DNA of 64,000 bases from Spirochaetales bacterium (lineage in GTDB: Bacteria; Spirochaetota; Spirochaetia; UBA9216), in assembly GCA_016342585.1 (NCBI GenBank), contig JAEINK010000006.1, positions 1 through 64,000 of the forward strand, written 5' to 3'. The notes under the pieces are model-generated. The model had not been told where the DNA came from, did no database searches, and saw nothing but the letters and a program-made list of their open reading frames with translations. Both the position numbers and the translations under genes were made by a program. Of the stretch, positions 29,435 through 60,450 are shown piece after piece (within the stretch, counting starts at the first letter, position 1; every line of letters begins with the position of its first letter).

Positions 29435-29456
29435 CCATTTTTCTCCTTACAATCCT

Positions 29457-32176: not shown

Positions 32177-32218
32177 GGTAAAATTATAACCGAGGAGGCT
32201 GATTTATAGAAGCGGGGT

Positions 32219-33064
32219 TTATTCGTAAGAGATAATCGACCTGCGGTACTGGCCGGGGCTTAAACCGGTAGTCTTCCTGAACATCCGGCTGAAATACTGG
32301 GGGTCATCAAAACCCGCATTATAGGCGATCTCTTTTATGGGCTGGCTGGAAAATGAGAGCTGTTCACAGACATACTCGATACGGATACGATTCAGATATT
32401 GTATGGGAGAGTATCCGGTCACAGCTTTAAAGAGGGCCCGGAGGTAGTTATAGGAATAACCGCGAATGGCCACAATGTCCTTAACTGGACGCCTGGTAAG
32501 AAGATTTTCCTGAAGCCGGGTTTTGATCTCCTCGGCGAGAGCCTCCTTCACACCGATTTTTTTCCCGGCTCCGGAGACCCCCGGCACAACCGAAAGGAGC
32601 ATCCGGTAGAGGATGGCAGAGGATTGAATCTGATAATCGAGGGGTTTTCGCTCGGAGAGGAGTATGAGTTCTTCAAAGGAGGACTGAACATCCCATCGCA
32701 TGACTTTTGACAGAACGGGAGCGTTTCTATCAAGATACCCCCCTTTTTCAAGCAGTTCACCTATCTCCCCCGTAAAAATAACCCAGTACTGAGTCCAGCT
32801 CCCCCCCACAGGACCATAGCGATGAGGCTGACCGGGGAAGAGAAAAAAGAGAGACCCCGCCTCAAGGGGGAGAGGCTCCTTCCTCTCAGATCCATAATAG
32901 GCCCCCTTCCCCCGGGAGATAAAGACAGCCGCAAAGAAGTTTAAGACACGCATTCCATAGATATTTACATCTTCATGGGTAATCCTGCCCGAGCCTATAA
33001 CGGTAAGACCTGGAATCAGCTTTCCCGGCATGATGAAACTGTCATTCCTTTCATTTTCGATCAT
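32219..33064 (-). CDS. AraC-family regulator, cupin type
   Basis: The open frame extends to a GTG at 33142, but its first 26 residues are hydrophobic and unlike the family, so I take the ATG at 33064 (MIENERND). Neither start has a good ribosome site. The 281-aa protein has a cupin N-domain (FPGQPHRYGPVGGSWTQYWVIFTG) and a C-terminal AraC HTH (IVAIRGYSYNYLRALFKAVTGYSP, IAYNAGFDDPQYFSRMFRKTTGLSP). It is divergent from the third URO-D gene, a likely target. Confidence 0.88.
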   Translation of the reverse strand: MIENERNDSFIMPGKLIPGLTVIGSGRITHEDVNIYGMRVLNFFAAVFISRGKGAYYGSERKEPLPLEAGSLFFLFPGQPHRYGPVGGSWTQYWVIFTGEIGELLEKGGYLDRNAPVLSKVMRWDVQSSFEELILLSERKPLDYQIQSSAILYRMLLSVVPGVSGAGKKIGVKEALAEEIKTRLQENLLTRRPVKDIVAIRGYSYNYLRALFKAVTGYSPIQYLNRIRIEYVCEQLSFSSQPIKEIAYNAGFDDPQYFSRMFRKTTGLSPGQYRRSIISYE

Positions 33065-33199
33065 AATCAAATAATACAATTTTTTCATAACAAAACAACT
33101 GATATTACCGCTAAACCATAAAAAGACAATCAAAAAGTCCACTATTTTATATCAAAATATCTCTATACGAACAGGGAATCCCGATCTAATAATGACAGC

Positions 33200-34282
33200 A
33201 TGAATAAGAGAGAAGCCTTTATACGAGTATTAAAGAGAGAGGAAGTGGAAAATACCCCCCGGATATTTCCACCGGATATTGATTTAACTCCTCCAAAGAT
33301 GGATGAGTTTAAGAAGATAAAAACAGATAAAAGCGTAGAAGAGTATTTTGGACTTTTTCATCGAACGGTAGCGTGCAGAATGGAAAAAACCTATTCCGGT
33401 GACGGGAAACAACTCTTTACCGGAAAAGAGATGCCCGCCGAATATGAGGTTGATCCTTTCGGGACCGGAGAGTCTAAAGGTTCCGCCGCCTGCCTGCATA
33501 TGGTCCACTTTCACCCGCCTCTTGCGGGAGAAGGCACCACCATGGAGGACCTGGCGAACCATCCTCTTCCGGTTATCGGCCCCGGTGAAAAAGAGAGGTT
33601 GACGAAACTGATCGGGGAGCTCCACGATAAAAATATCGCAGTGAGAGCATGGCTGGAACAGACGATATGGGAAAGATCCTGGCTTATCCGCGGAATGGAA
33701 GATCTGATGATGGATATGGTGATGGAGGCCCCCAAAGCTGAACTCCTGCTGGACAGGATCACCGAACACTCCTGCCGGACGGCAGCCTTCCTTGCCGGTA
33801 CAGGGGTAGATCTGATTGCCCTGGGTGATGATATAGGGATGCAATCCACTCCCTTGATAGACCCGAAAATGTGGATGAAATTCCTCCAGCCCCGCCTGGC
33901 AAAGGTAATCGCCGCGGCAAAAGCGGTTAATCCGGATGTGCTCATATCCTACCACTCCTGCGGATTTGCCACCCCCTTCATAGACGGGCTGATCGAAGCG
34001 GGTGTTGAGGTTCTGAACCCCCTCCAGCCGGAGAGTATGAATGTTGAAGAGGTTTATAATAAATATAATGACAGGCTTGCCTTCTGGGGAGCCATTGGAA
34101 CCCAGACCACAATGCCCTTTGGAACACCGGAGGATGTCAGACAGGCCGTACTTGATATTGCCCGATTGAGTGAACAGAAGAGAGGATTTCTGATCTCCCC
34201 CACCCATGTCATCGAACCGGAAGTGTCCTGGGACAATCTCCATACCTATATTATCACGATGAAAGAGTTAAACGGACTCTGA
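33200..34282 (+). CDS. URO-D superfamily protein, copy 3 (distant)
   Basis: The 360-aa protein belongs to the uroporphyrinogen decarboxylase superfamily. Its HxC element ISYHSCGFATPFI lies near residue 250, and it has GVDLIALGDDIGMQ near residue 210. It is much more divergent from copies 1 and 2 than they are from each other, and it has no second Cys near the C-terminus. It is divergent from the AraC gene at 32219-33064. A role in sugar or methylated-sugar catabolism is only inference. Confidence 0.8.
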   Translation: MNKREAFIRVLKREEVENTPRIFPPDIDLTPPKMDEFKKIKTDKSVEEYFGLFHRTVACRMEKTYSGDGKQLFTGKEMPAEYEVDPFGTGESKGSAACLHMVHFHPPLAGEGTTMEDLANHPLPVIGPGEKERLTKLIGELHDKNIAVRAWLEQTIWERSWLIRGMEDLMMDMVMEAPKAELLLDRITEHSCRTAAFLAGTGVDLIALGDDIGMQSTPLIDPKMWMKFLQPRLAKVIAAAKAVNPDVLISYHSCGFATPFIDGLIEAGVEVLNPLQPESMNVEEVYNKYNDRLAFWGAIGTQTTMPFGTPEDVRQAVLDIARLSEQKRGFLISPTHVIEPEVSWDNLHTYIITMKELNGL

Positions 34283-34329: not shown

Positions 34330-36132
34330 TTAAATCCCCGATGGAAGGGCCACAGTGAAACGTGTGCCTTTTCCGGGGGTGCTCTGGAAGGTAATAACCC
34401 CGCCGTGGGCTTCTGCTATATTCTGACAGATGGAAAGTCCCAGGCCGGTGTTGGTTCGTGTTACCTTGGTAGTATAAAAGGGAGTAAAGATATCATCCTG
34501 AATTTCCAGAGGGATGCCATAACCATCATCAATAACTGAAACCCGTACAGCCCTCTCTTTTCTATCCTCTTCAATTTCCAGCCTGATTTTCCCCCGCTCA
34601 AGAACGGCATCGATTGAGTTGGATATAAGATTCAGAAATAACTGTTTTAACTTATTCTCTTCCCCCATGATGAACACAGGATGTGAAGGAAAGCTTTTTT
34701 CCAGATTTATCCGGTTCTTGTTCAACTGATGCCCCAGAAGCATGGCGATCTCATCCAACAGGCTTATGATATTCAGTTTCGCAACATCGGACTGGCGGAC
34801 CCTGGAAAAAGAGAGCAGATTTCCAATAATCTCAACAATTCGTTTTAACTCACTTTCGATAAATCCCACATACTCTTTTTCCGACTCGCCCTCCAGGGAG
34901 AGTTTCAGAAGCTCAAGGTAATTCTGAATAATGGCCAGCGGGTTTTTAATCTCATGGGCGACACCGGCGGCAAGCTCTGCCGTGGAAGCGACTTTTTTAA
35001 CCTGCATTAAATACTCCCGGGTATGGTAATCAAAGGAGACATCCTGAAGCATTATATTCGTACCGATGGAATTGCGGTTTTTATTGTAGATAGGAGCCAG
35101 GGTGAGGTTGATAAAATGGTCCCCCACAGCAAGTCCCTGAAAGGTATGACGTTCCTCCTGGAAGATTATCTTCTTAATCTCCTCCTGATCAGAAACTTTA
35201 AAACTGTTTAGAATCTTCTGAAGAGGATCGCCTTTCTCTACTGGGTGTTCAAGTAGAGCCGAGGCAGCCTGATTGATAATGACAACCCGCCCCTTTTCAC
35301 TGATAATAACATCCCCGATGGGAAGCTCATTGATAATATGTTCCTGACTTGAACCCAGGGGAATGGGGTCCTGATCGGCTTCCAGAGATTCGATGGATGT
35401 GGAAAAATTGAATGCCATATTCAGGATACGTGAAGGGTCCACAGCACCGACGGACTCGGTTCCCTGCCTTAGCCCATCCTTGAAGATAGTGACCCTGTCG
35501 GCGACTTTGAAGATTTCATTAAAATTAGATGTTATATAGATTATGGATTTCCCCTGATTCCTCAGCATAAAGAGAAGAGCATAGATCTGCTCCATCTCCC
35601 GGGGTGTCATGCTCTGGGAGATCTCATCCACAATCAGCACCTCAGGCTCCCTGGCGAGAGCCTTGGCAATGTTTACAAAAAGTTTCTGATGTTCTGAAAG
35701 TTTATAAACGGGAAGATCCATGGGAAGTCCGGGATAGATAAGCTGAATCAGCTCCCGGGCCTTCTGAACTCTTCTTAGCTTCTCTTTTCTGGAGAGGATA
35801 AACCGGGGACCTGTGCCGATGAAGATATTATCCACCACATTCATGGCGGGGATCAGCTCCTTATCCTGCTGAACCATACCGATCCCCTTAGAAAGAGAAG
35901 CGCCAAGTGAAAAATTCCCGAGTTTCTCCCCTTTATAATAATAATTCCCTTTCTGTATTTTCCTGTAACCGCCTATCAGCTTGGCAAGGGTGGACTTACC
36001 TGAACGATGGTCCCCGACCAGGGCATGAATCTCTCCGTATTGAAGATCAAAATCAATACCACGAAGAGCGGGGATATCACCGTAGGCGTATTCGATTCCA
36101 TGAAGACTTAATATGGTTCGTTCGCTTGTCAT
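34330..36132 (-). CDS. ABC-ATPase/PAS/histidine-kinase fusion protein (ara copy)
   Basis: A 600-aa cytoplasmic protein with no membrane segment. Residues 1-250 are an RbsA-like ABC domain: Walker A GDHRSGKS (40-47), Q-loop VQQD, a degenerate signature LSEHQ (145-149, normally LSGGQ), and Walker B LIVDE (166-170). The H-loop His is replaced (YITSN, 199-203). Residues 265-370 look PAS-like. HisKA follows with the H-box VAHEIKNP (His 393), then HATPase with N-box LISNSIDA, DDGYGIP, FTPFYTTK and GLGLSI. Its ATG overlaps the stop of the sigma-54 activator gene (ATGA), so the two are coupled. The ABC part seems able to bind ATP but is doubtful as an efficient ATPase. It probably senses the state of the neighbouring sugar transporter (inference). 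Confidence 0.93.
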   Translation of the reverse strand: MTSERTILSLHGIEYAYGDIPALRGIDFDLQYGEIHALVGDHRSGKSTLAKLIGGYRKIQKGNYYYKGEKLGNFSLGASLSKGIGMVQQDKELIPAMNVVDNIFIGTGPRFILSRKEKLRRVQKARELIQLIYPGLPMDLPVYKLSEHQKLFVNIAKALAREPEVLIVDEISQSMTPREMEQIYALLFMLRNQGKSIIYITSNFNEIFKVADRVTIFKDGLRQGTESVGAVDPSRILNMAFNFSTSIESLEADQDPIPLGSSQEHIINELPIGDVIISEKGRVVIINQAASALLEHPVEKGDPLQKILNSFKVSDQEEIKKIIFQEERHTFQGLAVGDHFINLTLAPIYNKNRNSIGTNIMLQDVSFDYHTREYLMQVKKVASTAELAAGVAHEIKNPLAIIQNYLELLKLSLEGESEKEYVGFIESELKRIVEIIGNLLSFSRVRQSDVAKLNIISLLDEIAMLLGHQLNKNRINLEKSFPSHPVFIMGEENKLKQLFLNLISNSIDAVLERGKIRLEIEEDRKERAVRVSVIDDGYGIPLEIQDDIFTPFYTTKVTRTNTGLGLSICQNIAEAHGGVITFQSTPGKGTRFTVALPSGI

Positions 36133-37448
36133 AACTCTATGTTCAATTTTTTCAATTTGGCATAAAGGGTTTTTCGGCTGATGTTCAGATAATCTGCAGC
36201 ATGGGATTTATTCCCATGGGCCTTCTCCAGAGCCCCCAGAACAACCTCCCGATCCACCTTTTCGTAGAAAGAAGACAAGGGTTCATTCTCCTGGGGAATC
36301 ATCACTTTGTACTGACTGGGAAGATCCTCACGGGTGATCTCTTTCCCCTTTGAAAAAATCACAGTTCTTTCTATAGTATTTTTTAACTCTCTGATATTTC
36401 CGGGCCAGCTGTGGTTTTGAAAAATCGCCCCCACCTCATCCGAAAGGAGAATGGCCGGTTTATTATACCGGACACAATACAAGGCCAGGAAATAGTCACA
36501 AAGGGGGATAATATCTTTATTTCGTTCCCGCAGGGGTGGAATCTCCAGGCAGATAACACTCAGCCGGTAATAGAGGTCCTGCCGAAATGTTCCGTTAGCG
36601 ATCATCTTTTCCAGGTTGCGGTGGGTCGCGGCAACAAAACGAACATCCGCTTTTCGAACCTGATTTGAACCAACAGGCTCATACTCCTTCTCCTGAAGAA
36701 CACGAAGGAGTTTGGCCTGAATGTTCAGACTCATATCCCCGATCTCATCGAAAAAAAGGGTCCCCCCCTCGGCGGCTTCAAACTTACCTTTTCGGCTGCT
36801 CTTCGCATCGGTAAAGGCACCCTTTTCATGACCGAAGAGTTCACTCTCAAGCAGGGCTTCCGGGAGAGCTGCACAATTTATCTTGATGAATGGCTTCTCC
36901 TTTCTGTTACTGTTTTCATGGAGGGTTGTGGCAAAATGCTCTTTTCCTGTTCCGCTTTCGCCTGTGATAATCACAGGAACATCCGTTAAGGCTGCCGTAT
37001 GGGCCATCTGAAGACAATGCTTCATTTTCTCATCATGAATGATCATCTCCCCCTCTTTCGGAAAAGGGGGGTGCTCATCATTATTCACAACCTTTTTCAC
37101 CTCTTCGACCAGCCTGGGAATATCCAGAGGCTTTTCATAGAAGTTCAGGGCGCCCAGCTTCATAGCTTCCACGACCATATCGGTAGAGGCATAGCCGGAG
37201 ATCATTATAACCTTAAGTTTTTTGGCACATTGACTAATCTGTTCAAGTAGGGACAAACCGGAAATACCAGGCATTTTGATATCGGAAATAATAAGCTGAT
37301 ATTGATTCTCCTTTATCATTGAAAGGGCGGTAACAGAATTATCGGTATACTCACAGGGCAGGTTATGAGCCGTGAGTATTTTTGAAAGTGATTCACAAAG
37401 CTTTAATTCATCATCGACAACAAGTATGGACGGATTCATTAGGGCCAT
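36129..37448 (-). CDS. NtrC-type sigma-54-dependent response regulator (ara copy)
   Basis: The 439-aa protein has a receiver domain (Asp 56 in LIISDIKMPG, Lys in YEKPLD). Its AAA+ domain has Walker A GESGTGKE, the sigma-54 contact loop GAFTDA (normally GAFTGA), FFDEIGDM and LRERNKDI. A Fis-type C-terminal helix-turn-helix (AADYLNISRKTLYAKL) follows. It would be phosphorylated by the coupled ABC-kinase and activate sigma-54 promoters. A sigma-54 promoter faces away from it before araF. No ribosome site is seen upstream of the start: a TATAAT (37455-37450) overlaps the first ATG, and a start at the second ATG (37439) would make the mRNA leaderless. Confidence 0.95.
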   Translation of the reverse strand: MALMNPSILVVDDELKLCESLSKILTAHNLPCEYTDNSVTALSMIKENQYQLIISDIKMPGISGLSLLEQISQCAKKLKVIMISGYASTDMVVEAMKLGALNFYEKPLDIPRLVEEVKKVVNNDEHPPFPKEGEMIIHDEKMKHCLQMAHTAALTDVPVIITGESGTGKEHFATTLHENSNRKEKPFIKINCAALPEALLESELFGHEKGAFTDAKSSRKGKFEAAEGGTLFFDEIGDMSLNIQAKLLRVLQEKEYEPVGSNQVRKADVRFVAATHRNLEKMIANGTFRQDLYYRLSVICLEIPPLRERNKDIIPLCDYFLALYCVRYNKPAILLSDEVGAIFQNHSWPGNIRELKNTIERTVIFSKGKEITREDLPSQYKVMIPQENEPLSSFYEKVDREVVLGALEKAHGNKSHAADYLNISRKTLYAKLKKLNIEL

Positions 37449-37483: not shown

Positions 37484-37530
37484 ATCTGTTTCCGTATGGT
37501 AACAGATCTGTTACCATAAGTAACAGATGG
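37484..37530. promoter_or_regulatory. Candidate enhancer sites for the sigma-54 activator upstream of araF
   Basis: Two overlapping inverted repeats built from GATCTGTTAC/GTAACAGATC half-sites. The central perfect palindrome spans 37496-37517 (22 bp), with ATCTGTTAC/GTAACAGAT arms spaced by 5 bp reaching 37528. They lie 105-150 bp upstream of the -24/-12 promoter at 37633, the normal place for NtrC-type enhancers. Confidence 0.75.
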
Positions 37531-37632: not shown

Positions 37633-37648
37633 TGGCACTATTTTTGCT
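37633..37648 (+). promoter_or_regulatory. Sigma-54 (-24/-12) promoter of araF
   Basis: TGGCAC-TATTT-TTGCT matches the sigma-54 consensus TGGCAC-N5-TTGCW at every conserved base, with 10 bp between GG and GC. Transcription should start near 37659, about 55 bp before the GTG start of araF. Confidence 0.88.
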
Positions 37649-37714
37649 TTATCTATGGCAAAGCAGAAAACTCGAACAAGTTTCGGGGACTATGTAAATT
37701 TTAAGGAGGGACTT

Positions 37715-38719
37715 GTGAAAAAAAGTCTAATTGTTGTTGCATTAATTATTTTGGTTGTAACCGGCGTATTTGCCGGAGGTCAGAAGGATTCATCATCCGA
37801 TGCTGTAAAGATCGGTTTCCTTGTAAAAATGCCTGAAGAACCCTGGTTTCAGAATGAGTGGATGTTTGCAGATGTTGCCGGTGAAGATTATGGTTTTGAG
37901 GTTCTGAAAATCGGAACACAGGATGGAGAAAAAGTTCTTGCCGCTATTGATAATATCGCAGCTCAGGGCGCACAGGGATTTGTAATTTGTACTCCCGATG
38001 TAAAGCTTGGTTCAGCAATCGTAGCCAAAGCAGAAGCAAACGGCCTTAAGGTTTTCTCGGTAGATGATAGATTCATAGGTGCTGACGGTAATCCTATCAA
38101 AGCAGTTCCCCACATGGGAATCTCCGCTTACGAAATTGGAAAGCAGGTTGGATACACAATGGCCGAACAGATGGCAGCAAGAGGCTGGGCACAGGAAGAG
38201 ACAGGTTTCATGAGGATCTCTTTCAACGAACTCCCTACTGCTGTTGATAGAACAACAGGTATGACAGATGCTCTCATCGAAAAAGGTTTTGATGCCGCTT
38301 ATGTTTTTGAATCACCCGAAAAAACAACCGATACAGAAGGTGGATTTAACGCCGCAAGTATTACTATCACAAAGAACCCCCAGATTAAACACTGGCTGGT
38401 AGGTGGACTCAATGATGAAGCAGCTCTCGGTGCTATCCGGGCCATGGAAGGTAACGGTTTCGCAGTAGATGACATTTGCGGTGTTGGAATCGGCGGAAGC
38501 GGAACAGCCGTAAGCGAATTCCAGAAAGAAGAAGTAACCGGTTTCTACGCAACAGCCCTTATCAGTCCTAAAAGACATGGTTATGAAACCAGTGAGTTTC
38601 TTTACAAATGGATCACAGAGGGTGTTGAGCCTCCTGCCACCACTTGGACTACAGCTGTAATGATTGGCCGTGACAACTTTATTGAAGAAATGAAAGCTAA
38701 CGGTCTCTGGACTGAATAG
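37715..38719 (+). CDS. araF: L-arabinose-type periplasmic sugar-binding protein
   Basis: I start at GTG 37715, with AAGGAGGG 5 bases upstream; the frame from 37655 has no site and overlaps the expected transcription start. The 334-aa protein has a signal (IVVALIILVVTGVFAGGQKD) and follows E. coli AraF closely: FLVKMPEEPWFQNEW, FEVLKIGTQDGEK, GFVICTPDVKLGSAIVAKA, INHWL-like IKHWLVGGLND, and the TTG motif of the hinge. It would deliver arabinose or galactose to AraGH. The GGQKD start is common in spirochaete binding proteins. Confidence 0.94.
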   Translation: MKKSLIVVALIILVVTGVFAGGQKDSSSDAVKIGFLVKMPEEPWFQNEWMFADVAGEDYGFEVLKIGTQDGEKVLAAIDNIAAQGAQGFVICTPDVKLGSAIVAKAEANGLKVFSVDDRFIGADGNPIKAVPHMGISAYEIGKQVGYTMAEQMAARGWAQEETGFMRISFNELPTAVDRTTGMTDALIEKGFDAAYVFESPEKTTDTEGGFNAASITITKNPQIKHWLVGGLNDEAALGAIRAMEGNGFAVDDICGVGIGGSGTAVSEFQKEEVTGFYATALISPKRHGYETSEFLYKWITEGVEPPATTWTTAVMIGRDNFIEEMKANGLWTE

Positions 38720-38770: not shown

Positions 38771-38808
38771 ATTAAGACTATTTGCTTTGTTTAAGTAAGA
38801 GAGAAAAG

Positions 38809-40329
38809 ATGACACCATATTTAGAATTCAATTCAGTCGGTAAATCCTTCCCGGGTGTCCGAGCATTAAACAACATAACTTTTCAGGTTAAACAGGGAGA
38901 AGTTCACGGCTTAGTAGGCGAAAACGGAGCAGGAAAGTCTACACTGCTTAAGATTTTAAGCGGCGCCCATGCTCCGACAGAAGGAAGCCTCTCCATAAAT
39001 GGAGAGCAGCAGGATTTCAAGAATACCCGTTCCGCCATAGACGCAGGGGTCGCCATAATATATCAGGAGTTATATCTTGTTCCGGATATGTCGGTAGCTG
39101 AAAACCTCCTGCTTGGTCACATGCCCTTGAAAAGAGGCTTTGTTGATCATAAGAAAATGAAAAAAATCGCACAGGATCAGCTCGACTTTATTATGGAAGA
39201 CATTGATCCGTCGCAGAAAATAAAAGAACTATCCATTGCCCAGAGACAGATGATCGAAATCGCAAAAGCACTCCTTCAGGATTCACAGATCATTGCCTTT
39301 GACGAACCGACCAGTTCACTTTCCGACAAGGAAACCAAACGGCTGTTCAAGATCATCAAAAACCTGAGTGCGGCCGGAAAATCCATCATCTATGTCTCCC
39401 ATCGAATGGAAGAGATATTTGGAATATGTGACCGCGTTACGGTTTTTCGTGATGGGGAAAAAGTAGAAACCTTTGAGGATATGACCGATGTTAACCATGA
39501 TGTTCTGGTCAGCCGAATGGTTGGACGCGATATTGCAGATGTCTACAGCTATCGTGAAAGGCCCCAGGGAAAATGCATCCTTAAAGTAACCGATATGATG
39601 GGACCGCAGTTGAAAAAACCGGCCTCCTTCGAAGTTAAAGAGGGCGAGATCCTCGGGTTCTTCGGTCTGGTGGGCGCTGGCAGAACTGAACTCATGCGCC
39701 TTATCTATGGTATTGATCGCAGGGAGACCGGGGAGGTTGAAATCAGCGGCAAAGTTGCCAAAGTCACCTGTCCCCGGGATTCGATTGAAAGCGGGCTTGT
39801 ATACTGCCCTGAGGACAGAAAGTTTGAAGGGATTGTTCCGGTTCGAAGTGTCGATGAAAATATAAACATCAGCTCCAGAAGACATTATGTCAAAGCTGGT
39901 ATTTTCATCGATAAAAAACGGGAAACCGCAAATACCATGAAGTTCATCGATAGTCTGGATATAAAAACCCCTTCAAAAGAACAGCAGGTAGGGAATCTAT
40001 CGGGAGGAAACCAGCAGAAGGTTATTCTTGCCAGGTGGCTCAGCGAAGAGGTGCAGCTCCTTATAATGGATGAACCGACTCGTGGAATAGATGTGGGCAC
40101 CAAAAATGAAATTTATCATCTTATGTATGATCTTACCGAAGAAAAAAAAGGGATAATATGTGTGTCCAGTGATCTCCCGGAAGTTATGGGAGTCTCCGAT
40201 CGCATCATCATAATGCGTGAAGGTGAAATTGTTGCCTCTTTGAATAGAGATGAGTTTTCAGAAGAAAAAATACTGTCCCTGGCCCTGCCCGTGGATGATG
40301 ATAAGAACAGGAGCAAGATAAATGATTAA
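38809..40329 (+). CDS. araG: Arabinose ABC transporter ATPase (two ABC domains)
   Basis: I start at ATG 38809 (AGAGAGAAAAG upstream); the frame from 38782 is longer but unneeded. The 506-aa protein has two ABC domains as in AraG/RbsA. Domain 1 has Walker A GENGAGKST, signature ELSIAQRQM, Walker B IIAFDEPTSSLS and VSHRMEEIF. Domain 2 has a degenerate Walker A (GLVGAGRTE) but an intact LSGGNQQKV and LLIMDEPTRGID. It energises sugar import with AraH. It is the normal ATPase beside the degenerate ABC domain of the kinase. Confidence 0.95.
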   Translation: MTPYLEFNSVGKSFPGVRALNNITFQVKQGEVHGLVGENGAGKSTLLKILSGAHAPTEGSLSINGEQQDFKNTRSAIDAGVAIIYQELYLVPDMSVAENLLLGHMPLKRGFVDHKKMKKIAQDQLDFIMEDIDPSQKIKELSIAQRQMIEIAKALLQDSQIIAFDEPTSSLSDKETKRLFKIIKNLSAAGKSIIYVSHRMEEIFGICDRVTVFRDGEKVETFEDMTDVNHDVLVSRMVGRDIADVYSYRERPQGKCILKVTDMMGPQLKKPASFEVKEGEILGFFGLVGAGRTELMRLIYGIDRRETGEVEISGKVAKVTCPRDSIESGLVYCPEDRKFEGIVPVRSVDENINISSRRHYVKAGIFIDKKRETANTMKFIDSLDIKTPSKEQQVGNLSGGNQQKVILARWLSEEVQLLIMDEPTRGIDVGTKNEIYHLMYDLTEEKKGIICVSSDLPEVMGVSDRIIIMREGEIVASLNRDEFSEEKILSLALPVDDDKNRSKIND

Positions 40330-41305
40330 CACCGCTGTAAAGAATACAAACAGGACAGTGATGAAGCTGTTCAAGGATCTCTGGGAAAAGTCAGGAATGG
40401 TTGTCATCTACCTGATCCTTTTCATTGCCCTTTCACTTTTCGTACCATATTTCTTCACCATGAGGAATATGATTGGACTTGGTCTTTCGGTATCCATGGT
40501 TGGTATGGTGGCCTGTACCATGCTTTTCTGCCTGGCCTCCGGTGATTTCGACCTTTCTGTTGAAAACATTGTTGCCTTCTCCGGTGTTTTCTGTGCGGTT
40601 ATTATCAATACCACAGGAAGTGTATTCCTCGGTGTGGCTGGAGGAATCCTCGGAGGAGCCTTCTTCGGTCTTGTAAATGGAACAATCATTGCCAAGGCGG
40701 GAATTAACGCCCTGATCACAACCCTGGGTATGGCTCAGATCATAAGAGGTTTGGGATTCATCGTCTCGGGCGGAAGTGCTGTTGGAATCCAGAAGGTAAG
40801 TTTCTTTACAATTGGAAACGGCTCATTTCTCGGTCTTCCCAACCCAATCTGGATTACCATTGTCTGTTTCATCGTATTCGGGATACTCCTGAACAATACA
40901 ACCTATGGAAAGAACACACTGGCAATGGGTGGTAATATGGAAGCAGCCCGCCTTGCAGGTATCGGTGTCAATAAAGTAAAGATCATGATTTTTTCCATCC
41001 AGGGTGCTATGGCAGGGTTCGCCGGCGTTGTTTTAGCAAGCAGAATGACAAGTGGCCAGCCAAACACCTCTGTCGGGTTTTCCCTTGATGTCATCTCCGC
41101 CTGTGTCCTCGGTGGTGTATCGCTCTCCGGTGGTATTGCCCCCATCCAGGGAGCCATAGTCGGTGTTCTCATCATGGGTACTGTTCAGAACTCCATGAAC
41201 CTGATGAACATTCCAACTTTTTATCAGTATGTTGTTCGCGGAGCCATCCTCCTGATCGCCGTACTCGTTGATAAATTCAAAGAGACACATAGAACAAGCG
41301 TATAA
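40322..41305 (+). CDS. araH: Arabinose ABC transporter permease
   Basis: The 327-aa membrane protein has about 8-10 helices and the RbsC/AraH signature (GDFDLSVENIVAFSG, GMAQIIRGLGFIVSGG, YAIGG-like NTLAMGGNMEAARLAGI, GFSLDVISACVLGG). It overlaps the araG stop by 8 nt, indicating coupling. It forms the channel that AraF feeds and is a candidate docking partner for the ABC domain of the kinase at 34330-36132. Confidence 0.94.
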   Translation: MINTAVKNTNRTVMKLFKDLWEKSGMVVIYLILFIALSLFVPYFFTMRNMIGLGLSVSMVGMVACTMLFCLASGDFDLSVENIVAFSGVFCAVIINTTGSVFLGVAGGILGGAFFGLVNGTIIAKAGINALITTLGMAQIIRGLGFIVSGGSAVGIQKVSFFTIGNGSFLGLPNPIWITIVCFIVFGILLNNTTYGKNTLAMGGNMEAARLAGIGVNKVKIMIFSIQGAMAGFAGVVLASRMTSGQPNTSVGFSLDVISACVLGGVSLSGGIAPIQGAIVGVLIMGTVQNSMNLMNIPTFYQYVVRGAILLIAVLVDKFKETHRTSV

Positions 41306-52509: not shown

Positions 52510-53535
52510 TTATTCTATAGCTTTTGCTTCACCCCGGGCAAGCTTTGATGAGTTTGAAGTTATATATGTCTGGATCAGGATAAATCCAAGAACCATCAAA
52601 CCTACCAGTATTTGAGCCCACCATTCCCGGAAAGAGGAAATATAGGCTGGAAGTTTGAAAATCAGTCCATATATAAGAACTCCAAAAAAGCTCCCGATTA
52701 CCCGCCCGGAACCACCTGTCAACAAAGTACCTCCAATTACAACGGCAGCAATTACATCAAGCTCAAGTCCAAGTGCATTATGGGGTTTTCCGGAAGCGAG
52801 GTGGATTGTAAAAACTATACCGCCCAGAGCACTCAGAAATCCGCTTAAAGTGTAGATCATAACCTGAGTCTTCTTAACCGGCAGTCCCATTAAAACAGCC
52901 GAGTTTTGGTTTCCACCGATAGCATAAACTGTCCTGCCGAATTTCGTATATTTTGAAATATAGATTCCTGCCAGTAATACTATAAAAAAGACCAGAACAT
53001 ACAGACTGAAATTTCCGGCACCTATTTTGATTCCTGTTTTCTTCATGAAAATAATAAAAGGATCTTCCATGATACTGATCGTTCCCTGGTGAATCATATA
53101 CGCAAGACCACGCATCAGAAACATGGCCACCAGTGTAACAAGAAAGGCAGGCAGTTCAAAAAAGGAGATGAGACAGCCTACCAGAAATCCCAGGGAGGCT
53201 CCGATAACAAGGCAGATAAGCATGGAGATCCAACAGGGAACCCCATAAGCCTCATTTAATTTGGCGATTAAAATAGTCGTAAACGCAACAACTGATCCGA
53301 CAGATAGATCGATCCCTCCTGAAATTATGACAAAAGTCATCCCTACCGCGATGATTCCAATATACGCATTGGCCTTAAAAATATTCACATAATTGTACAG
53401 GCTGAAAAAGCCGGGAAACGCCAGAGACGCTGCACTGTACATTACAAGAAAGATTGCAATGGTTGTTAGAATTGGGACATTGTTTACAGTTAGTCTGAAT
53501 CCTTTTATTCTGTACATCAACTTATTCGGCATCAC
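52510..53535 (-). CDS. yjfF: CUT2 sugar ABC transporter permease, YjfF-like
   Basis: The 341-aa membrane protein has about ten helices and the RbsC-type segments FVIISGGIDLSVGSVVAFT, VTLVAMFLMRGLAYM, YAIGGNQNSAVLMGLP and LELDVIAAVVIGGTLLTGG. It is the second permease of the operon and overlaps the first by 14 nt. The pairing of two permeases with a YtfQ-like binding protein is the pattern of the galactofuranose system YtfQRT-YjfF. Confidence 0.9.
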   Translation of the reverse strand: MMPNKLMYRIKGFRLTVNNVPILTTIAIFLVMYSAASLAFPGFFSLYNYVNIFKANAYIGIIAVGMTFVIISGGIDLSVGSVVAFTTILIAKLNEAYGVPCWISMLICLVIGASLGFLVGCLISFFELPAFLVTLVAMFLMRGLAYMIHQGTISIMEDPFIIFMKKTGIKIGAGNFSLYVLVFFIVLLAGIYISKYTKFGRTVYAIGGNQNSAVLMGLPVKKTQVMIYTLSGFLSALGGIVFTIHLASGKPHNALGLELDVIAAVVIGGTLLTGGSGRVIGSFFGVLIYGLIFKLPAYISSFREWWAQILVGLMVLGFILIQTYITSNSSKLARGEAKAIE

Positions 53536-54592
53536 TTAACCTCTGCTGTTTTTTTCCTGATTTCACCAGACTTCTTACTTTTTCTCTGAAAATTTCAGAC
53601 TGAATGAGAGCCACAAAGATAATTACCAATGCTTTGAAAACAAGGGAGTACTCGAACGGCCAGCGTTGAAAGTAAACTGTCGTTGTTAGACTCTGGATTA
53701 TGAGTGCCCCAACCAGAGATCCAGTGAGAGTAAATCGGCCTCCCCACATGGTTCCTCCAATTATTACAGCCGCTATTGCGTCGAGTTCAATCATGAAGCC
53801 TGTTGTATAGGGACTTGCACTTGATTCACCGGCTACATGTATCAGACCGGCAATCCCGGCACAGAATGCACAGAAGATATAGGTGAATACAGTAATGATG
53901 GTGGTTCGAATTCCAACATATCTGCTTGCTGCTCTATTTTCACCAATCGACTCGATGAAAATACCTATTGCCGTTCTTTTGGTAACTATCAAAGTAATCA
54001 CAAAAATGGTAGCTCCAATCCAGACCGGAACAGGAAGTCCGGCAAAAAACCCGGTCCCGAGTTTAGTAAAAGGTACCTCGTGATAAGTTGGGGTTTGACC
54101 TTGAACCATGAGAACAGCAAGACCTCTTGCCGAATACATCATGATCAAAGTGGCAATAATCGGCTGAACTTTGACAACCGCGACAAGTAGCCCATTGATT
54201 AAACCAAGAAGTAAAGCTATCAACAGGGGCAGTAAAATTATAAGTAAAAACGGAGACTGCGGATCGGCTACCGGAAGTCCTGCAAGGTACCCCGGCCGGA
54301 TGATCAAGGCTGCCATGGCTCCTGAAACAGCCATTACCGAACCTACCGACAGGTCGATACCGCCGGTGGCATATACAAGGGTCATCCCCACCGCAAGAAT
54401 ACAAACCCTGGCTCCATTGTTCAGGATATTTATCAGATTACCTCGAATCTTCCCGTCAGCATGAAGAGTAACTTCAAAGAATTCGGGAGAAATAATCAGA
54501 TTCAGCATTAATATGGCAAACAATCCTATAAGGGCCCAGAGGAACCTCTTGGTCAATGGATCTTCAATTTTAAGAAGCTTATTATTCATCAT
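53522..54592 (-). CDS. ytfT: CUT2 sugar ABC transporter permease, YtfT-like
   Basis: The 356-aa protein shows the RbsC-type helices with LVYATGGIDLSVGSVMAVSGA, VQPIIATLIMMYSARGLAVL, GENRAASRYVGIRT and GFMIELDAIAAVIIGGTMWGG. It lies 8 bp after the ATPase gene. Gene order binding protein, ATPase, two permeases is the E. coli ytf order. It probably forms the channel with YjfF. Confidence 0.9.
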   Translation of the reverse strand: MMNNKLLKIEDPLTKRFLWALIGLFAILMLNLIISPEFFEVTLHADGKIRGNLINILNNGARVCILAVGMTLVYATGGIDLSVGSVMAVSGAMAALIIRPGYLAGLPVADPQSPFLLIILLPLLIALLLGLINGLLVAVVKVQPIIATLIMMYSARGLAVLMVQGQTPTYHEVPFTKLGTGFFAGLPVPVWIGATIFVITLIVTKRTAIGIFIESIGENRAASRYVGIRTTIITVFTYIFCAFCAGIAGLIHVAGESSASPYTTGFMIELDAIAAVIIGGTMWGGRFTLTGSLVGALIIQSLTTTVYFQRWPFEYSLVFKALVIIFVALIQSEIFREKVRSLVKSGKKQQRLSDAE

Positions 54593-54600
54593 TATTATTC

Positions 54601-56100
54601 CTATGTCTCAGCTATTGTCTTCATAATAACCTGCTCATTTATATCCTTGCCAGTCAGTTCCTTAACAACATTCCGATCCCGCAGGACTGCAATCCGGGTT
54701 GCACAACGAACAACCTCTTCAAGCTCTGAAGAAATAAACAATATGGCCAAACCATCATCTTTAAGCTTTAAAATCAGCTTCTGGATCTCAACCTTGGCTC
54801 CAATATCTATCCCTCTTGTCGGTTCGTCAAGAATCAGGAGTTCAGGATTCGCCGCCAGCCATCGGGCAAGTATAACCTTCTGCTGGTTACCACCACTTAA
54901 ATTTTTCACACTCTGGTCAGTTCCAGGAGTGACGATATTCAAGGTTTCAATAAACTTTTCAGCAACTTCATTCCGTTGTTTTTTGCTGAGAAACCGGAAA
55001 ATGCCTCTCTTTGCCTGTAGTGCAAGAATTATATTTTCACGAACACTCAATTCAGGGATTATTCCAACAGCCTTTCTATCTTCCGGGCAAAATCCCATAC
55101 CATATTCAATGGCGTGTTTCGGTCCCCGAATTACAACAGGTTTTCCATGAATCTTCATTTTACCGGAATCCGGTTTTTCAACCCCATAAAAAAGCTGGGC
55201 AACCTCTGTCCTGCCGGAACCAAGGAGGCCAGCCAGGCCAAGCACCTCTCCTTTATAAATTGTCATATCAAACTCATTTATATATTCAGCCTTACTCGCC
55301 TTCTCTATAGATAAATATTCTTCTCCATGAACAGAATCTTTATGATGCCAGATATCAGTATCAAATTCACCCAATTCTTTTCCCAGCATACTGGATATCA
55401 GTTCAAGTCTGGTGATTTCCGCTGTCTTAAACACTCCAACTTTGGCTCCGTTTCTCAGGACAGTTATCCTGTCGGTTACTTCGAAAACCTGATCAAGGAA
55501 ATGGGTTACAAAAATGATACCCATACCCTGATTTTTTAATTTATTCATAACCTTGAAAAGCTGTGCTGCTTCCGCAGCATCTAAACTTGAAGTTGGCTCA
55601 TCAAGAATAAGAATATCAGCTGAAATATCCAGAGCACGGGCAATAGAAACCATTTGTTGAACCGCAACTGAGAAAGAACCTAAAGGCATAGTCACATCAA
55701 GATCCAATTCCAGGAGGGCTAATGCTTTTTGAGCCCGATCATTGAGGGTTTTCCAATCGATCGCATGAAACCCGTTTTTAAAAGGCTGTCTTCCAAGAAA
55801 CATATTTTCTGCCACGGACAGCATAGGTATCAGGTTTATTTCCTGATAGACCGTACTAATTCCATGCTTAACAGCCTCATTAGGTGATGTAAAATTTACA
55901 TCCGCACCATTGTAGACGATTTTACCGTCGTCCCTGGAAAAAAAACCGGTTATTACTTTTATCAGGGTCGACTTCCCTGCACCGTTCTCACCCATCAAGC
56001 CATGGATTTCACCTTTTTTTAAGTCGAAACTTATTGAAGTAAGAGCTTTCACTCCAGGAAAGCTCTTACTCAAATTAGTTACATTCAGGATTTCTCCCAT
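54601..56100 (-). CDS. ytfR: CUT2 sugar ABC transporter ATPase, YtfR-like
   Basis: The 499-aa protein (ATG 56100; a GTG at 56109 is an alternative) has two ABC domains. The first has GENGAGKST, SVAVQQMVSIARAL in place of LSGGQ, LILDEPTSSLD and VTHFLDQVF. The second has GLLGSGRTEVA, LSGGNQQKVILARWL and LLILDEPTRGIDIGA. It powers sugar import with the two permeases. It belongs to the operon controlled by the sigma-54 promoter at 57114-57130. Confidence 0.93.
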   Translation of the reverse strand: MGEILNVTNLSKSFPGVKALTSISFDLKKGEIHGLMGENGAGKSTLIKVITGFFSRDDGKIVYNGADVNFTSPNEAVKHGISTVYQEINLIPMLSVAENMFLGRQPFKNGFHAIDWKTLNDRAQKALALLELDLDVTMPLGSFSVAVQQMVSIARALDISADILILDEPTSSLDAAEAAQLFKVMNKLKNQGMGIIFVTHFLDQVFEVTDRITVLRNGAKVGVFKTAEITRLELISSMLGKELGEFDTDIWHHKDSVHGEEYLSIEKASKAEYINEFDMTIYKGEVLGLAGLLGSGRTEVAQLFYGVEKPDSGKMKIHGKPVVIRGPKHAIEYGMGFCPEDRKAVGIIPELSVRENIILALQAKRGIFRFLSKKQRNEVAEKFIETLNIVTPGTDQSVKNLSGGNQQKVILARWLAANPELLILDEPTRGIDIGAKVEIQKLILKLKDDGLAILFISSELEEVVRCATRIAVLRDRNVVKELTGKDINEQVIMKTIAET

Positions 56101-56129
56101 AATTTTCACTAATCCTTTAATTAAATTTA

Positions 56130-57077
56130 TTAGAATCCCATTGTTGGATGATCTTTGTAGTTATCCAGATCATAGAGACCATCAGGATTAATTATGTACT
56201 TATCAACTGGTTTTCCGTCGATTGTTTTCATAATAGCTTCAAAACCGAGGGGTCCAAGAAGAGGACTACACTCAACAGTAGCATTCATATCACCTCGCTC
56301 CATGGCCTCAAAGGCGGCCTTTATGGCATCTACGGAAATGATGAGCACATCATCACCAGGATCCATTCCTGCAGCTTTAAGAGCATCAATTGCTCCAAGT
56401 GCCATACCATCGTTGTGAGCATAAATAACATCAAACTTAACACCTGCTGCGAGCCAGGCTTCTACAACCTGACGGCCCTTATCCTGACTCCACTCTCCGG
56501 TTTTTGATTCCACAACCTCAATATCAGGAAATGACGCCATTACTTCCATAAATCCTTCACTTCTGAGAATCGCAGGATCTGCGGCAGGATCTCCAAAGAG
56601 TTCCGCAACCTTACCTTTTCCATTCAATTTTTCAGCTACCCAGTTACCGGCGACACGGCCTTCATATGCAAAATCTGAGGAGATCTGTGTTACCCAGAGT
56701 GATTCGGGAGCATCTACTCCGCGGTCCAGCATAACAACAGGTATTCCTGCATCTTTGGCTTCCTGAAGAACTTCATCCCAGCCGCTTCTGGTCTGAGGAG
56801 CTAAAAGGATTCCATCTACGCCCTGTGCAATAAAATCTCTTAAGGCAGCAATCTGCCCAGCCTGCTCGGTAACAGAAAGTTTCAATTCAATCCCAAGCCT
56901 CTCTGCTTCCTGCTGAACTGAATTGGTCTCTGTTGTTCTCCAGGGACTGTCTTCTTTTATCTGTGCGAATCCAACAGTCAGGCTTCCATCATCTTTCTGC
57001 CCACCGGCTGTAAGAGAAGGAACAAGCAGTAAAAGAGCTGCTGCCAAAACGATTAAAAATCCCATTTTTCTTTTCAT
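56130..57077 (-). CDS. ytfQ: YtfQ-like periplasmic sugar-binding protein
   Basis: I start at ATG 57077 (AAAGGAG upstream); the frame to 57137 runs over the sigma-54 promoter and is not used. The 315-aa protein has a signal ending LTAGGQKDDG and follows YtfQ closely: LTVGFAQIKEDSPWRTTETNS, DFIAQGVDGILLAPQTRSGW, VMLDRGVD, YAHNDGMALGAIDALKAAG. YtfQ binds galactofuranose and galactose, so this transporter probably takes up a galactose-type sugar. It is the first gene of the operon. Confidence 0.92.
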   Translation of the reverse strand: MKRKMGFLIVLAAALLLLVPSLTAGGQKDDGSLTVGFAQIKEDSPWRTTETNSVQQEAERLGIELKLSVTEQAGQIAALRDFIAQGVDGILLAPQTRSGWDEVLQEAKDAGIPVVMLDRGVDAPESLWVTQISSDFAYEGRVAGNWVAEKLNGKGKVAELFGDPAADPAILRSEGFMEVMASFPDIEVVESKTGEWSQDKGRQVVEAWLAAGVKFDVIYAHNDGMALGAIDALKAAGMDPGDDVLIISVDAIKAAFEAMERGDMNATVECSPLLGPLGFEAIMKTIDGKPVDKYIINPDGLYDLDNYKDHPTMGF

Positions 57078-57113
57078 AAAAACTCCTTTAAAAAATATTA
57101 TTGAATATATGAA

Positions 57114-57130
57114 AGCAAACAACATGCCAA
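57114..57130 (-). promoter_or_regulatory. Sigma-54 (-24/-12) promoter of ytfQ
   Basis: On the minus strand TTGGCAT-GTTGT-TTGCT reads TGGCAT-N5-TTGCT, one base off the consensus TGGCAC, with 10 bp between GG (57128-57127) and GC (57116-57115). Transcription should begin near 57103, about 26 bp before the ATG at 57077. Confidence 0.82.
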
Positions 57131-57246
57131 TGATCATTTTTTCAACAATAAAAAATTATTATTTTAACTAATTATATATTATATAAAGATATATATAATC
57201 AAAAAAAGTAAATTATAAGAAGCAGGAAGATTATACATGTTTAGAG

Positions 57247-57359: not shown

Positions 57360-58649
57360 ATGCACGAAATAATACTTGTTATTGATGATAAAGAAAAACT
57401 CTGTAAGAGTCTCGGATTGAATTTCAGACAGTTAGGTTATAAATATAACTATTGCCTTAATGGAGAGTCGGCAAAAAATTTCATTAACCAGACAGAACCG
57501 GACATTGTGCTTCTTGACCAGGCGCTTGGCGACGAAGATGGTTTGGAAATTCTGATTCATATAAAGAGAAAGAGACCGACAGTCCCTGTTATCATGATCA
57601 CAGGTTACGGTTCTATCGACAATGCGGTTAAAGCTATAAAAATAGGGGCATCCGATTATATTCAGAAACCTCTGAATTTCGAAAAATTACATAAAATAGT
57701 TGAGTATAGTCTATTTAAAAAAGACAACAGAGAGAATCATTCTTCGAAAGGAATTATTACAAAAAGTATTCATATGAAGGAACTGCTTCAAAAAGCAGAA
57801 AAGCTGGCCCAGACGAATTTTCCGATTCTTATTATTGGCGAAAGTGGAACAGGAAAAGAACGGGTTGCCCATTATATACATGAAGCGTCAAAAAGATCTG
57901 CAATTGATATGAACTGCATTAACTGTGCAGCCTTCCCGGAGAACCTTCTGGATAATGAGCTTTTCGGGCATGAAAAGGGATCCTATACAGGTGCTGAATC
58001 ACAATTTCAAGGGATATTTGAGCGCTCAGATAAAAGCACATTATTTATGGATGAAATCGGCGACATGTCTCTTCAGACACAGGCAAAGATTTTAAGGACA
58101 TTACAGAACAATGAAATACGCCGTATCGGCGGCAAGGAAAATATCAGTATTGATGTACGGGTAATAGGTGCAACAAATAAAGACCTGACCGATATGATAA
58201 AAAACAAGCGGTTCCGGGAAGATCTGTATTACAGAATAAATACTGCTGTTATTAAGATTCCACCTTTAAGAGAAAGAAAAGAGGATATCATTCCCTTAGC
58301 AGATTTTTTCCTGAATGATGATTCTCCAGCCGTTAACAGAACACTTTCATCCGAAGTCGGTGATATCTTTATAAATTACAGTTGGCCTGGCAATGTGAGA
58401 GAAGTAAGGAATTCAATCCATTACGCAAGGGCAATGTCATCATCAAGCATCATTGAGATTTCGGATCTTCCCAATCAATTCAACAAACATTCCGAGGAGA
58501 CTTTTCAGGAGGGGTCTTTGGAGGATTATGAAAAAACCTTAATTATAAAAACCCTCAAGGATTCCGGAGATAATAAAAAAAGGGCCGCCGAGCTGCTGAA
58601 TATCAGCCGGAAAACACTTTACAACAAGCTGGAGAAGTATGGACTCTAA
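57360..58649 (+). CDS. NtrC-type sigma-54-dependent response regulator (ytf copy)
   Basis: The 429-aa protein has a receiver domain (Asp 53 in IVLLDQALGD, Lys in YIQKPLN). Its AAA+ domain has GESGTGKERV, the sigma-54 loop GSYTGA in place of GAFTGA, FMDEIGDMS and LRERKEDI. A Fis-type helix-turn-helix (AAELLNISRKTLYNKL) follows. The DNA-reading helix is almost the same as in the regulator at 36129-37448, so the two are close paralogues. It is divergent from ytfQ and overlaps the start of the second ABC-kinase by 11 nt. Confidence 0.95.
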   Translation: MHEIILVIDDKEKLCKSLGLNFRQLGYKYNYCLNGESAKNFINQTEPDIVLLDQALGDEDGLEILIHIKRKRPTVPVIMITGYGSIDNAVKAIKIGASDYIQKPLNFEKLHKIVEYSLFKKDNRENHSSKGIITKSIHMKELLQKAEKLAQTNFPILIIGESGTGKERVAHYIHEASKRSAIDMNCINCAAFPENLLDNELFGHEKGSYTGAESQFQGIFERSDKSTLFMDEIGDMSLQTQAKILRTLQNNEIRRIGGKENISIDVRVIGATNKDLTDMIKNKRFREDLYYRINTAVIKIPPLRERKEDIIPLADFFLNDDSPAVNRTLSSEVGDIFINYSWPGNVREVRNSIHYARAMSSSSIIEISDLPNQFNKHSEETFQEGSLEDYEKTLIIKTLKDSGDNKKRAAELLNISRKTLYNKLEKYGL

Positions 58650-60450
58650 AATAACAGAGACGCCACTGCTCGAACTTAGAAATGTAAGTTATATCCAAAA
58701 GCAGCAGACCATAGTTAAAGATATTAATCTTAAACTATATCCAGGGGAAATCCATGCATTTGTGGGCGACCGAGGTACCGGTAAATCGACACTTGGAAAA
58801 TTAATGGCCTTAATGGAGACACCGTCCACAGGAAATATTTTCTGGGAAGGCAAAGAAGTGTCTAATTTTAAATCATTTAAAACAACAGGTATACAGGTTG
58901 TTCATCAGGAAGGTGGTTTGATTGACTACTTTTGTGTGGCCGAAAACCTGTTCCTTCCGGAAAAAATATTCAAACCCTTTCCATTTACAAATAAACGAAA
59001 AATGGGATTAATGGCCGCAGACTTTTTTAAGAAATATGGATTTTCCTTGAACCCTGCAAGTCCTGTAAACAGTCTTAACCTATCCGAAAAAACAACTGTT
59101 ACACTTCTGAGGTCAATCTACAGAAAACCTAAACTCCTAATTATTGATGAAGCCCTGGAAAAACTGTCAGGAATGGACCATGATAAAATTCTTTGTCTTC
59201 TTCAAGAATTAGCAAGGCAGAAAGTAGCAATTGTCTGTATAAGTCACAGAATTGATGATATCTATAACCTTGCTGAAACAATTTCAGTAATAAGAGATGG
59301 ACGAATACTATTAACCGATGCAACAAAAAACATTGATCGTCTGAACCTGATAAAAATGTGTTACACCCAGGTAACACGGAATAAAAAAACTGAAGATATT
59401 AATAAAGAGTTTTATCAACTGCTTCGTTACAATGAGGCGATATTAAAGAACCTTCCTATCACCCTTATAGTTACCGATGATCAAAATAATATTAAAATGA
59501 TAAACGATCAGGGACAGGGATTTTTCAAACTTCAACCTGAGGAGTATTTAAATCAACCGATCTCGAAAATTATATCAGAACAGGAAACTCTAAAAGAGAT
59601 CAATAAACTTTTGGAACAAAACATTGAATCTATAATATTTAATCAGCAAATAGGTGAAGTCATTGTCAATATTAAAACCTATCCGATTTTTGATGGAACT
59701 TTTAGAATCGGAAGTATTATTATAATTGAAGATATTACAGAACAGGAAAAAATGCGTCAAAGACTTAACCTATCAGAGAACCTATCATCCCTGGGCCTTC
59801 TTGCAGCAGGAGTTGCTCATGAAATAAATAATCCCCTGGAGATCATCTACAACTATTTGAGTTTTTTACGGAGGAATTCCGAACACAATAAAGTAAGCGA
59901 AGCCATCGATCAGCTTGAAGAAGAGATAGATGGTATTAAAAATATTGTATCAGATCTTGTTTCATTCTCCGGAGACAAGGGACATGACTCGGACTATTTT
60001 GATGTTAATAATCTAATAGAACAAACACTTACTCTTTTGCGACCTGCCGCAAAAGAGCGGGGAATAAACTGCAGTTTTAAATCCTCAATTGATGAGATAT
60101 TTCTTCTTGCAAAAAAAACCGAAATCAGGCAGGTAATTCTCAATCTTATAAGAAACAGTTTTGAAGTGCTTGCTAAGGATGGACAATTAATAATCGAAAC
60201 AGATCAGACAGATAATAACATTATCATAAAAATTAAAGATAATGGTCCTGGAATTTTATCTCCCAATCCGGAACAGATATTTCTTCCGTTCTTTTCTACT
60301 AAAAAAAATGATAATAATAACAATCTTGGGTTGGGAATCCCCATGAGTTATGGAATAATCAGTAAATACAACGGGGAACTGACATTCCAAAACATCGCTG
60401 AAGGGGGATGCGAATTTACAATTACTCTCCCGCCAGGAAATTCTAAATAA
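58639..60450 (+). CDS. ABC-ATPase/PAS/histidine-kinase fusion protein (ytf copy)
   Basis: A 603-aa protein with no membrane segment, built like the one at 34330-36132. The ABC domain has Walker A GDRGTGKS (43-50), VVHQEGG as Q-loop, a degenerate signature LSEKT (148-152), Walker B LLIIDE (166-171) and an intact His in CISHR (203). A PAS-like part covers about 260-370. The kinase core has the H-box VAHEINNP (His 394), LIRNSFEV as N-box, KDNGPGIL, FLPFFSTK and LGLGIPM. The start is coupled to the activator gene (GGAG upstream). Compared with the ara copy, this one keeps the H-loop His, so some ATPase activity is more plausible. Function as transporter-state sensor is inferred. Confidence 0.93.
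   Translation: MDSKITETPLLELRNVSYIQKQQTIVKDINLKLYPGEIHAFVGDRGTGKSTLGKLMALMETPSTGNIFWEGKEVSNFKSFKTTGIQVVHQEGGLIDYFCVAENLFLPEKIFKPFPFTNKRKMGLMAADFFKKYGFSLNPASPVNSLNLSEKTTVTLLRSIYRKPKLLIIDEALEKLSGMDHDKILCLLQELARQKVAIVCISHRIDDIYNLAETISVIRDGRILLTDATKNIDRLNLIKMCYTQVTRNKKTEDINKEFYQLLRYNEAILKNLPITLIVTDDQNNIKMINDQGQGFFKLQPEEYLNQPISKIISEQETLKEINKLLEQNIESIIFNQQIGEVIVNIKTYPIFDGTFRIGSIIIIEDITEQEKMRQRLNLSENLSSLGLLAAGVAHEINNPLEIIYNYLSFLRRNSEHNKVSEAIDQLEEEIDGIKNIVSDLVSFSGDKGHDSDYFDVNNLIEQTLTLLRPAAKERGINCSFKSSIDEIFLLAKKTEIRQVILNLIRNSFEVLAKDGQLIIETDQTDNNIIIKIKDNGPGILSPNPEQIFLPFFSTKKNDNNNNLGLGIPMSYGIISKYNGELTFQNIAEGGCEFTITLPPGNSK

Follow-up and report, generated by a model that had tools for sequence, protein, structure and literature searches.

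How bacteria respond to uptake itself, and not simply to a ligand being there, has long been asked, and a membrane-bound sensor serves in the instances of uptake sensing known to us. The system examined here lies in a 64,000-nucleotide stretch of contig JAEINK010000006.1 from a Spirochaetales bacterium (assembly GCA_016342585.1; "the window" below), and it comprises a histidine kinase fused to an ATP-binding cassette (ABC) domain, an NtrC-type response regulator and a divergent sugar importer. Two described arrangements are closest to it. In Bce modules (BceAB-BceRS), a flux-sensing kinase is bound to an ABC transporter (excerpts of PMC10314905 and PMC8534201)—the likeness being a two-component system that reads an ABC transporter and controls that transporter's genes. 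BceS, however, is a membrane protein of its own that has two transmembrane helices and lacks an ABC domain, and BceAB handles antimicrobial peptides, whereas the fusion kinase carries an ABC domain, lacks a clear transmembrane segment and goes with a sugar importer and sigma-54. KsAmt5 is an ammonium transporter fused to a histidine kinase (excerpt of PMC8534201), again a transporter component joined to a kinase; there, however, the membrane channel is fused, whereas our fusion contains only the ATPase domain and the permease is separate. The premise of the initial annotation of this DNA, that transport-sensing kinases are separate membrane proteins, was too broad in view of KsAmt5.

Among better-known components, the ABC domain of the fusion resembles the first nucleotide-binding domain (NBD1) of RbsA/AraG-type ATPases, including its weak signature, but PAS and kinase regions stand where the second (NBD2) would be. 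The closest NCBIfam models are AtoS for the kinase, and NtrC and AtoC for the regulator, which likens the pair to AtoS-AtoC and NtrB-NtrC; yet the fusion scores 223.9 bits against an AtoS equivalog cut-off of 646, and its N-terminal input is the ABC domain. Transport-sensing two-component systems are already known, and the ABC-kinase layout appears to be new among them. A search of open-access titles and the first lines of abstracts listed no ABC ATPase domain joined to a kinase in this way, and the available part of a paper on two-component organization (PMC3018481) mentions neither ABC_tran nor ABC transporters. In the accessible portion of a survey of sigma-54 regulons (PMC12316311), Spirochaetia are mentioned in connection with nitrogen-fixation genes and with a chaperone cluster, and CUT2 importers are not named.

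Here, we document at the sequence level the fusion, its gene pairing with the regulator, linkage of the pair to CUT2 importers, importer-facing promoters, a palindrome and an NBD1-like domain without LSGGQ. We give an even chance to the proposal that these parts constitute a transport-coupled two-component switch, in which the ABC domain would dock on the importer and sense its state and the regulator would activate araFGH.

The fusion kinase and its regulator

Domain searches placed ABC_tran, HisKA and HATPase_c in a single window protein of 600 residues (Table 1), and the chain joining an ABC domain, a PAS-like part and a kinase core that had been annotated initially was thereby borne out. 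Both HisKA and HATPase_c exceed the Pfam cut-offs, the His and N/G boxes are intact, and the protein is a HisKA-type histidine kinase; His393, Asn501, Asn505, Asp535, Gly537 and Gly539 are kept in all 86 aligned fusions. A PAS match above cut-off was obtained only in a paralogue in the same window, and residues invariant among 22 aligned fusions occur within the PAS-like region. A clear transmembrane segment is absent from the window kinase (Kyte-Doolittle 19-residue maximum of 1.23, which rules out a clear membrane kinase), and a 19-residue hydropathy of at least 1.8 is reached somewhere in 4 of the 86 fusions.

The predicted structure of the fusion had a mean pLDDT of 81.4 and a pTM of 0.48, with relative domain placement unreliable. 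Model residues 4-272 match solved ABC domains, in single-domain matches that barely cover the kinase part; an unrelated NTPase is ruled out by this structural match together with the ABC_tran match, and the ABC assignment of the initial annotation stands. Of the 86 fusions, 99% retain the Walker A Lys and 99% the Q-loop Gln; the Walker B Asp is present in 100% and the Glu that follows it in 92%. The LSGGQ signature has been lost, and 62% have the H-loop His (Ser202 in the window protein). In the 71 linked ATPases, NBD1 has the Lys and Gln in 100% and the His in 96%, with an LSVAQQQ-like signature, while NBD2 carries LSGGNQQK in 71 of 71 and an Arg replacing the Walker Lys in 80%; one degenerate site has been described in B. 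subtilis RbsA and NupO (excerpt of PMC11466899). With Walker A, Q-loop and Walker B of NBD1 type, the fusion domain is, as judged from its motifs, the NBD1 half of a competent site. A tree of 82 sampled NBDs gathered all 34 fusion domains in one clade (SH-aLRT 97), placed next to or within NBD1 of CUT2 ATPases. The fusion is not itself such an ATPase: one ABC_tran match is followed by kinase domains in place of two NBDs, and the window protein reaches 151.4 bits against the AraG equivalog cut-off of 689.

The partner regulator consists of a receiver, a sigma-54 AAA+ domain and HTH_8 (a Fis-type helix-turn-helix), and is an NtrC-type response regulator; receiver Asp56 is conserved in all 77 relatives with a residue at that position. 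Its GAFTGA loop reads GAFTDA, a variant shared by 24 of 79 aligned relatives. We collected 84 fusion loci with up to 9 kb per side and classed their open reading frames (ORFs) by phmmer with window seeds; a regulator adjoined the kinase on the same strand, by rule, in 76. One further locus (L072) also has an adjacent regulator, and failed the rule since its kinase ORF was called too long; six of the other seven have at most 411 bp upstream, and the seventh is L046, where importer genes lie alongside the fusion and no regulator was recognised. Kinase and regulator genes overlap in 61 of 78 family pairs, most commonly by 4 nt (21 of 78), and both the 4-nt overlap reported initially for the window and the divergence of the pair from araFGH were confirmed.

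The fusion recurs in dozens of spirochaete genomes. Matches at E<=1e-50 occurred in 15 of 41 genomes (the source genome and relatives). For wider surveys of Spirochaetota, sampled by order, class and phylum, a profile of the 22-row fusion alignment at E<=1e-90 detected the fusion in 5 of the 7 genomes from the order, at least 59 of 394 sampled from the class and at least 17 of 392 sampled from the phylum, the latter two counts being lower bounds because three candidates were scored per genome. Two protein database searches, with 8000 candidates scored in each, gave at least 777 proteins at E<=1e-40 and at least 1074 at E<=1e-60; each of the best 120 listed per search had all three domains, and every listed match with a named organism was a spirochaete. 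A scan of genome contigs by exact short peptides returned one full-length relative and six partial matches. An isolated fusion is ruled out by the paralogue, the genome surveys and the protein searches.

CUT2 importers, sigma-54 promoters and palindromes

Linkage was assessed wherever the flank upstream of the kinase reached 4.5 kb or more, which left 65 loci; the CUT2 class label denotes similarity to AraFGH and YtfQRT/YjfF alone. A CUT2-type ATPase and permease lay within 9 kb in 57 of the 65, some CUT2-class gene in 62, a divergent one in 52 and a double-NBD ATPase in 60. As controls, we took NtrC-type activators without the fusion: 9 from the source genome (for three of them the match lay entirely beyond the receiver) and 40 hand-picked from 91 listed rows of eight relatives, with a match that includes the receiver and no known fusion adjacent. 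One of the 40 (L130) turned out to carry the fusion itself, together with a CUT2 importer, and was dropped; of the 48 remaining, 5 had a CUT2 ATPase and permease and 6 any CUT2 gene (57/65 versus 5/48, Fisher's test, p=2e-17, with loci from related genomes not independent). Random genomic placement, against which a neighbourhood survey of homologues had been advised at the outset, is thereby ruled out.

The five CUT2-linked control loci (L141, L153, L165, L166, L169) have conventional kinases with NtrC-type regulators. HAMP occurs in L141, L153 and L166 and transmembrane-like segments in L165, whereas the L169 kinase lacks such a segment and has PocR and PAS; overall, 4/5 show transmembrane-like segments and 2/5 PAS. 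At these loci, conventional kinases with HAMP/Cache, transmembrane-like or PocR input occupy the position that the ABC-kinase has elsewhere. In three fusion loci (L109, L110, L111), the importer genes include a double-NBD ATPase along with a lipoprotein-like ORF, and no CUT2 permease was recognised; by eye, their importer is perhaps of nucleoside type.

The importer beside the window fusion is, by sequence, the arabinose importer AraFGH: AraG exceeds its curated cut-off and AraF is related to solved arabinose-binding proteins. The -24/-12 element facing araF is perfect and the sole exact match in the window; allowing one mismatch gave two matches versus 1.5 expected by chance, so the weight rests on the family-wide promoter test. 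That test used 53 divergent intergenic regions, including both from the window (three more were skipped for length). Sites scoring at least 14/15 face the importer in 37 of the 53 and the opposite direction in 1, versus a shuffled mean of 0.37. Some importer-facing sites lie 1.0-1.4 kb ahead of the recognised ATPase; nine of ten such gaps inspected hold an ORF of 317-419 residues (L071 holds none), and by eye several of these resemble binding proteins or lipoproteins, whereas those in L056, L116 and L044 do not. Over 1.28 Mb, 79 sites of at least 14 were found. Four of these fall inside the gene pair, 24 are remote from it and 51 lie no more than 400 bp away; 50 of the 51 point away from the pair, and 47 of 84 loci have an outward site within 400 bp. 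Where the importer is downstream, a sigma-54 site precedes it in L054, L077, L082, L088, L104 and L117, and none does in L060, L075 and L090. In the window, the ATG of the araF ORF (37655) is only 6 nt past the -12 element, a position that makes the GTG at 37715, behind AAGGAGG, the likely start, as it is in two orthologues.

Upstream of the araF promoter stands a palindrome with half-sites GGTAACAG-nn-CTGTTACC, and the conserved blocks among the orthologous upstream regions of the window, L038 and L039 are this palindrome and the promoter. Across the family, perfect 8+8 palindromes occur in 11 of 40 regions versus 2.0 on average and 7 at most after shuffling (mononucleotide shuffles, which are lenient), and TGTGYA-n-TRCACA in 7 of 40 versus 0.008, a motif noticed by eye and then counted, hence post hoc. 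The regulator would bind the palindrome and be phosphorylated by the fusion kinase, and rpoN was found in the source genome. Control of the importer operon by the fusion-linked pair, a point absent from the initial annotation, appears well supported by these arrangements.

Table 1. Coordinates of the fusion modules and associated elements in the window.
Feature	Position	Strand	Remark
ABC-histidine kinase fusion	34330..36132	-	600 aa, one open frame
ABC nucleotide-binding domain, NBD1 type	35404..36123	-	aa 4-243
PAS-like region	35017..35349	-	aa 262-372; from secondary structure of predicted model
HisKA domain with His393	34795..34977	-	aa 386-446
HATPase_c domain	34339..34662	-	aa 491-598
NtrC-type response regulator	36129..37448	-	shares 4 nt with kinase gene
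Palindrome GGTAACAGATCTGTTACC, candidate regulator site	37498..37515		117 nt upstream of -24 element
Second inverted repeat ATCTGTTAC-N5-GTAACAGAT	37506..37528		overlaps first palindrome
Sigma-54 -24/-12 element TGGCACTATTTTTGCT	37633..37648	+	faces araF
araF ORF	37655..38719	+	likely start GTG 37715 behind AAGGAGG
araG, double-NBD ATPase	38782..40329	+	
araH-like permease (BPD_transp_2)	40322..41305	+	
YtfQ/R/T/YjfF-like CUT2 importer	52510..57137	-	divergent from paralogue
Sigma-54-like element TGGCATGTTGTTTGCT	57114..57129	-	1 mismatch; faces YtfQ-like gene
NtrC-type regulator paired with paralogue	57360..58649	+	
Paralogous ABC-histidine kinase fusion	58639..60450	+	603 aa

The paralogous fusion shares 28% identity with the window kinase (E 3e-68) and has an identical layout; the YtfQ-like and YtfR-like proteins beside it both fall under the YtfQ and YtfR equivalog cut-offs. 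Positions 52510-60450 hold a second complete module of importer, sigma-54-like site, regulator and fusion, with a TGTGTA-N5-TACACA repeat between. Elsewhere in the window, 25280-34282 contains gluconolactonase-like, SDR, enolase-superfamily, RraA-like and two URO-D-like genes with AraC- and LacI-type regulators, a set suggestive of a route for sugar acids or of a non-phosphorylative one for sugars.

Candidate inputs of the fusion kinase

The ABC domain probably serves as the input module, since it holds the input place in a chain with no clear transmembrane segment, where 4/5 of the conventional CUT2-locus kinases are transmembrane-like. As the domain in that place also resembles a domain of the linked importer, binding to the importer would be the simplest reading. 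In such a scheme, docking of the fusion's ABC domain on the importer likely replaces a periplasmic sensor, and the permease AraH—the usual seat of AraG NBD1—is the likeliest docking place; the kinase is predicted to sense which state the importer is in and would then phosphorylate the NtrC-type regulator, which would likely switch on araFGH from its sigma-54 promoter. An intact Walker half-site with no LSGGQ to complete a second one suggests that the ABC domain would be a nucleotide-dependent docking switch and not a pump, and a kept Q-loop with a lost signature fits docking without pumping. A bolder version, which we offer tentatively and hold to be somewhat short of probable, makes the kinase a part-time importer subunit: its NBD1-like domain would take the seat of AraG NBD1 on the permease, and importers that are motorless or changing state would drive phosphorylation and thus the production of more importer.

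Several observations weigh against a switch of this kind. Distance matrices were compared in a first run of 49 loci (10 failing an H-box rule left out) and a second of 58 (28 skipped), using partial Mantel tests, which are lenient. Beyond the kinase core, ABC distances followed the permease (r=0.22, p=0.002, 58 loci), but the regulator AAA+ domain followed it equally strongly (r=0.25, p=0.001). For the helical subdomain, where contact would be expected, no such correlation was seen (r=0.05, p=0.16). Removing kinase, receiver, AAA+ and PAS together left r=0.16 (p=0.010), with the AAA+ control as strong against the kinase core. The ABC-permease covariation counts as no support for docking, and the initially proposed AraH docking or AraG pairing gains nothing from a signal that a non-contact control equals. 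Moreover, an outward site of at least 14 within 400 bp is missing at 37 of 84 loci, partly because of short contigs; L042 and L052 show no CUT2 gene despite 9 kb on each side; and L119 adjoins arabinose catabolic genes only (araA, FGGY kinase, class II aldolase). The importer of these three loci may lie elsewhere, or their sensor may be independent of an importer. The PAS region, too, could be the sensor.

Around L042 and L052, a glycyl-radical enzyme and activase occur nearby, and the subgroup formed with L045, whose contig is short, has alcohol dehydrogenases and a DJ-1/PfpI-type gene nearby, no CUT2 gene seen and sigma-54 sites flanking the gene pair on both sides (the Pfam check of these neighbours was made on L042). 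An ENIF-like motif behind the Q-loop is lost in the glycyl-radical-linked members and also in L060, which is similar in that stretch and has a CUT2 operon—a loss confounded by descent.

Among the alternatives, the ABC domain might pair with AraG, whose NBD2 LSGGNQQK would complete the Walker site so that the kinase measures free or idle AraG. The two halves would be complementary, an NBD1-like domain without LSGGQ facing an NBD2 motif present in 71/71 linked ATPases, and ABC distances weakly follow NBD2 beyond the kinase core (r=0.14, p=0.013, 58 loci); however, the AraG chain already has its own NBD1, and no correlation of the ABC domain with the ATPase is left given the kinase core in the 49-locus run (r=0.07, p=0.16), so we regard such pairing as unlikely. 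It is also rather doubtful that the domain senses ATP/ADP or a cytoplasmic ligand, or merely holds the dimer, with no transporter contact, so that the linkage would mirror just the operon under control. The retained Walker A, Q-loop and Walker B would suit that role, as would L042 and L052, where sigma-54 sites flank the pair and no CUT2 gene lies within 9 kb per side. Kinship to NBD1 of the linked transporter class would nevertheless be needless for a generic ATP sensor, and the CUT2 linkage is far tighter than for other NtrC-type activators. Sensing of the imported sugar or a metabolite by the PAS region, with the ABC domain only tuning the response, seems improbable: such a region is present and has invariant residues, but PAS occurs in just 2/5 of the conventional CUT2-locus kinases and is not the distinguishing part of the fusion, and PAS distances show no correlation with those of the permease (r=0.03, p=0.32). 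A chance fusion or assembly artefact can be dismissed, given the catalytic residues kept in 86 aligned fusions and the 1074 or more proteins at E<=1e-60, the best 120 listed all being three-domain.

For the transport-coupled switch, a single importer class is indicated alike by the resemblance of the domain, the linkage of the genes and the promoters, and the window, in which each paralogue lies beside a different importer, offers a swappable test system. The family suggests regulators and sigma-54 promoters for the sugar importers of many uncultured spirochaetes. If the bolder version is true, spirochaetes would have an entire regulator family that senses the act of transport through the motor domain of the transporter.

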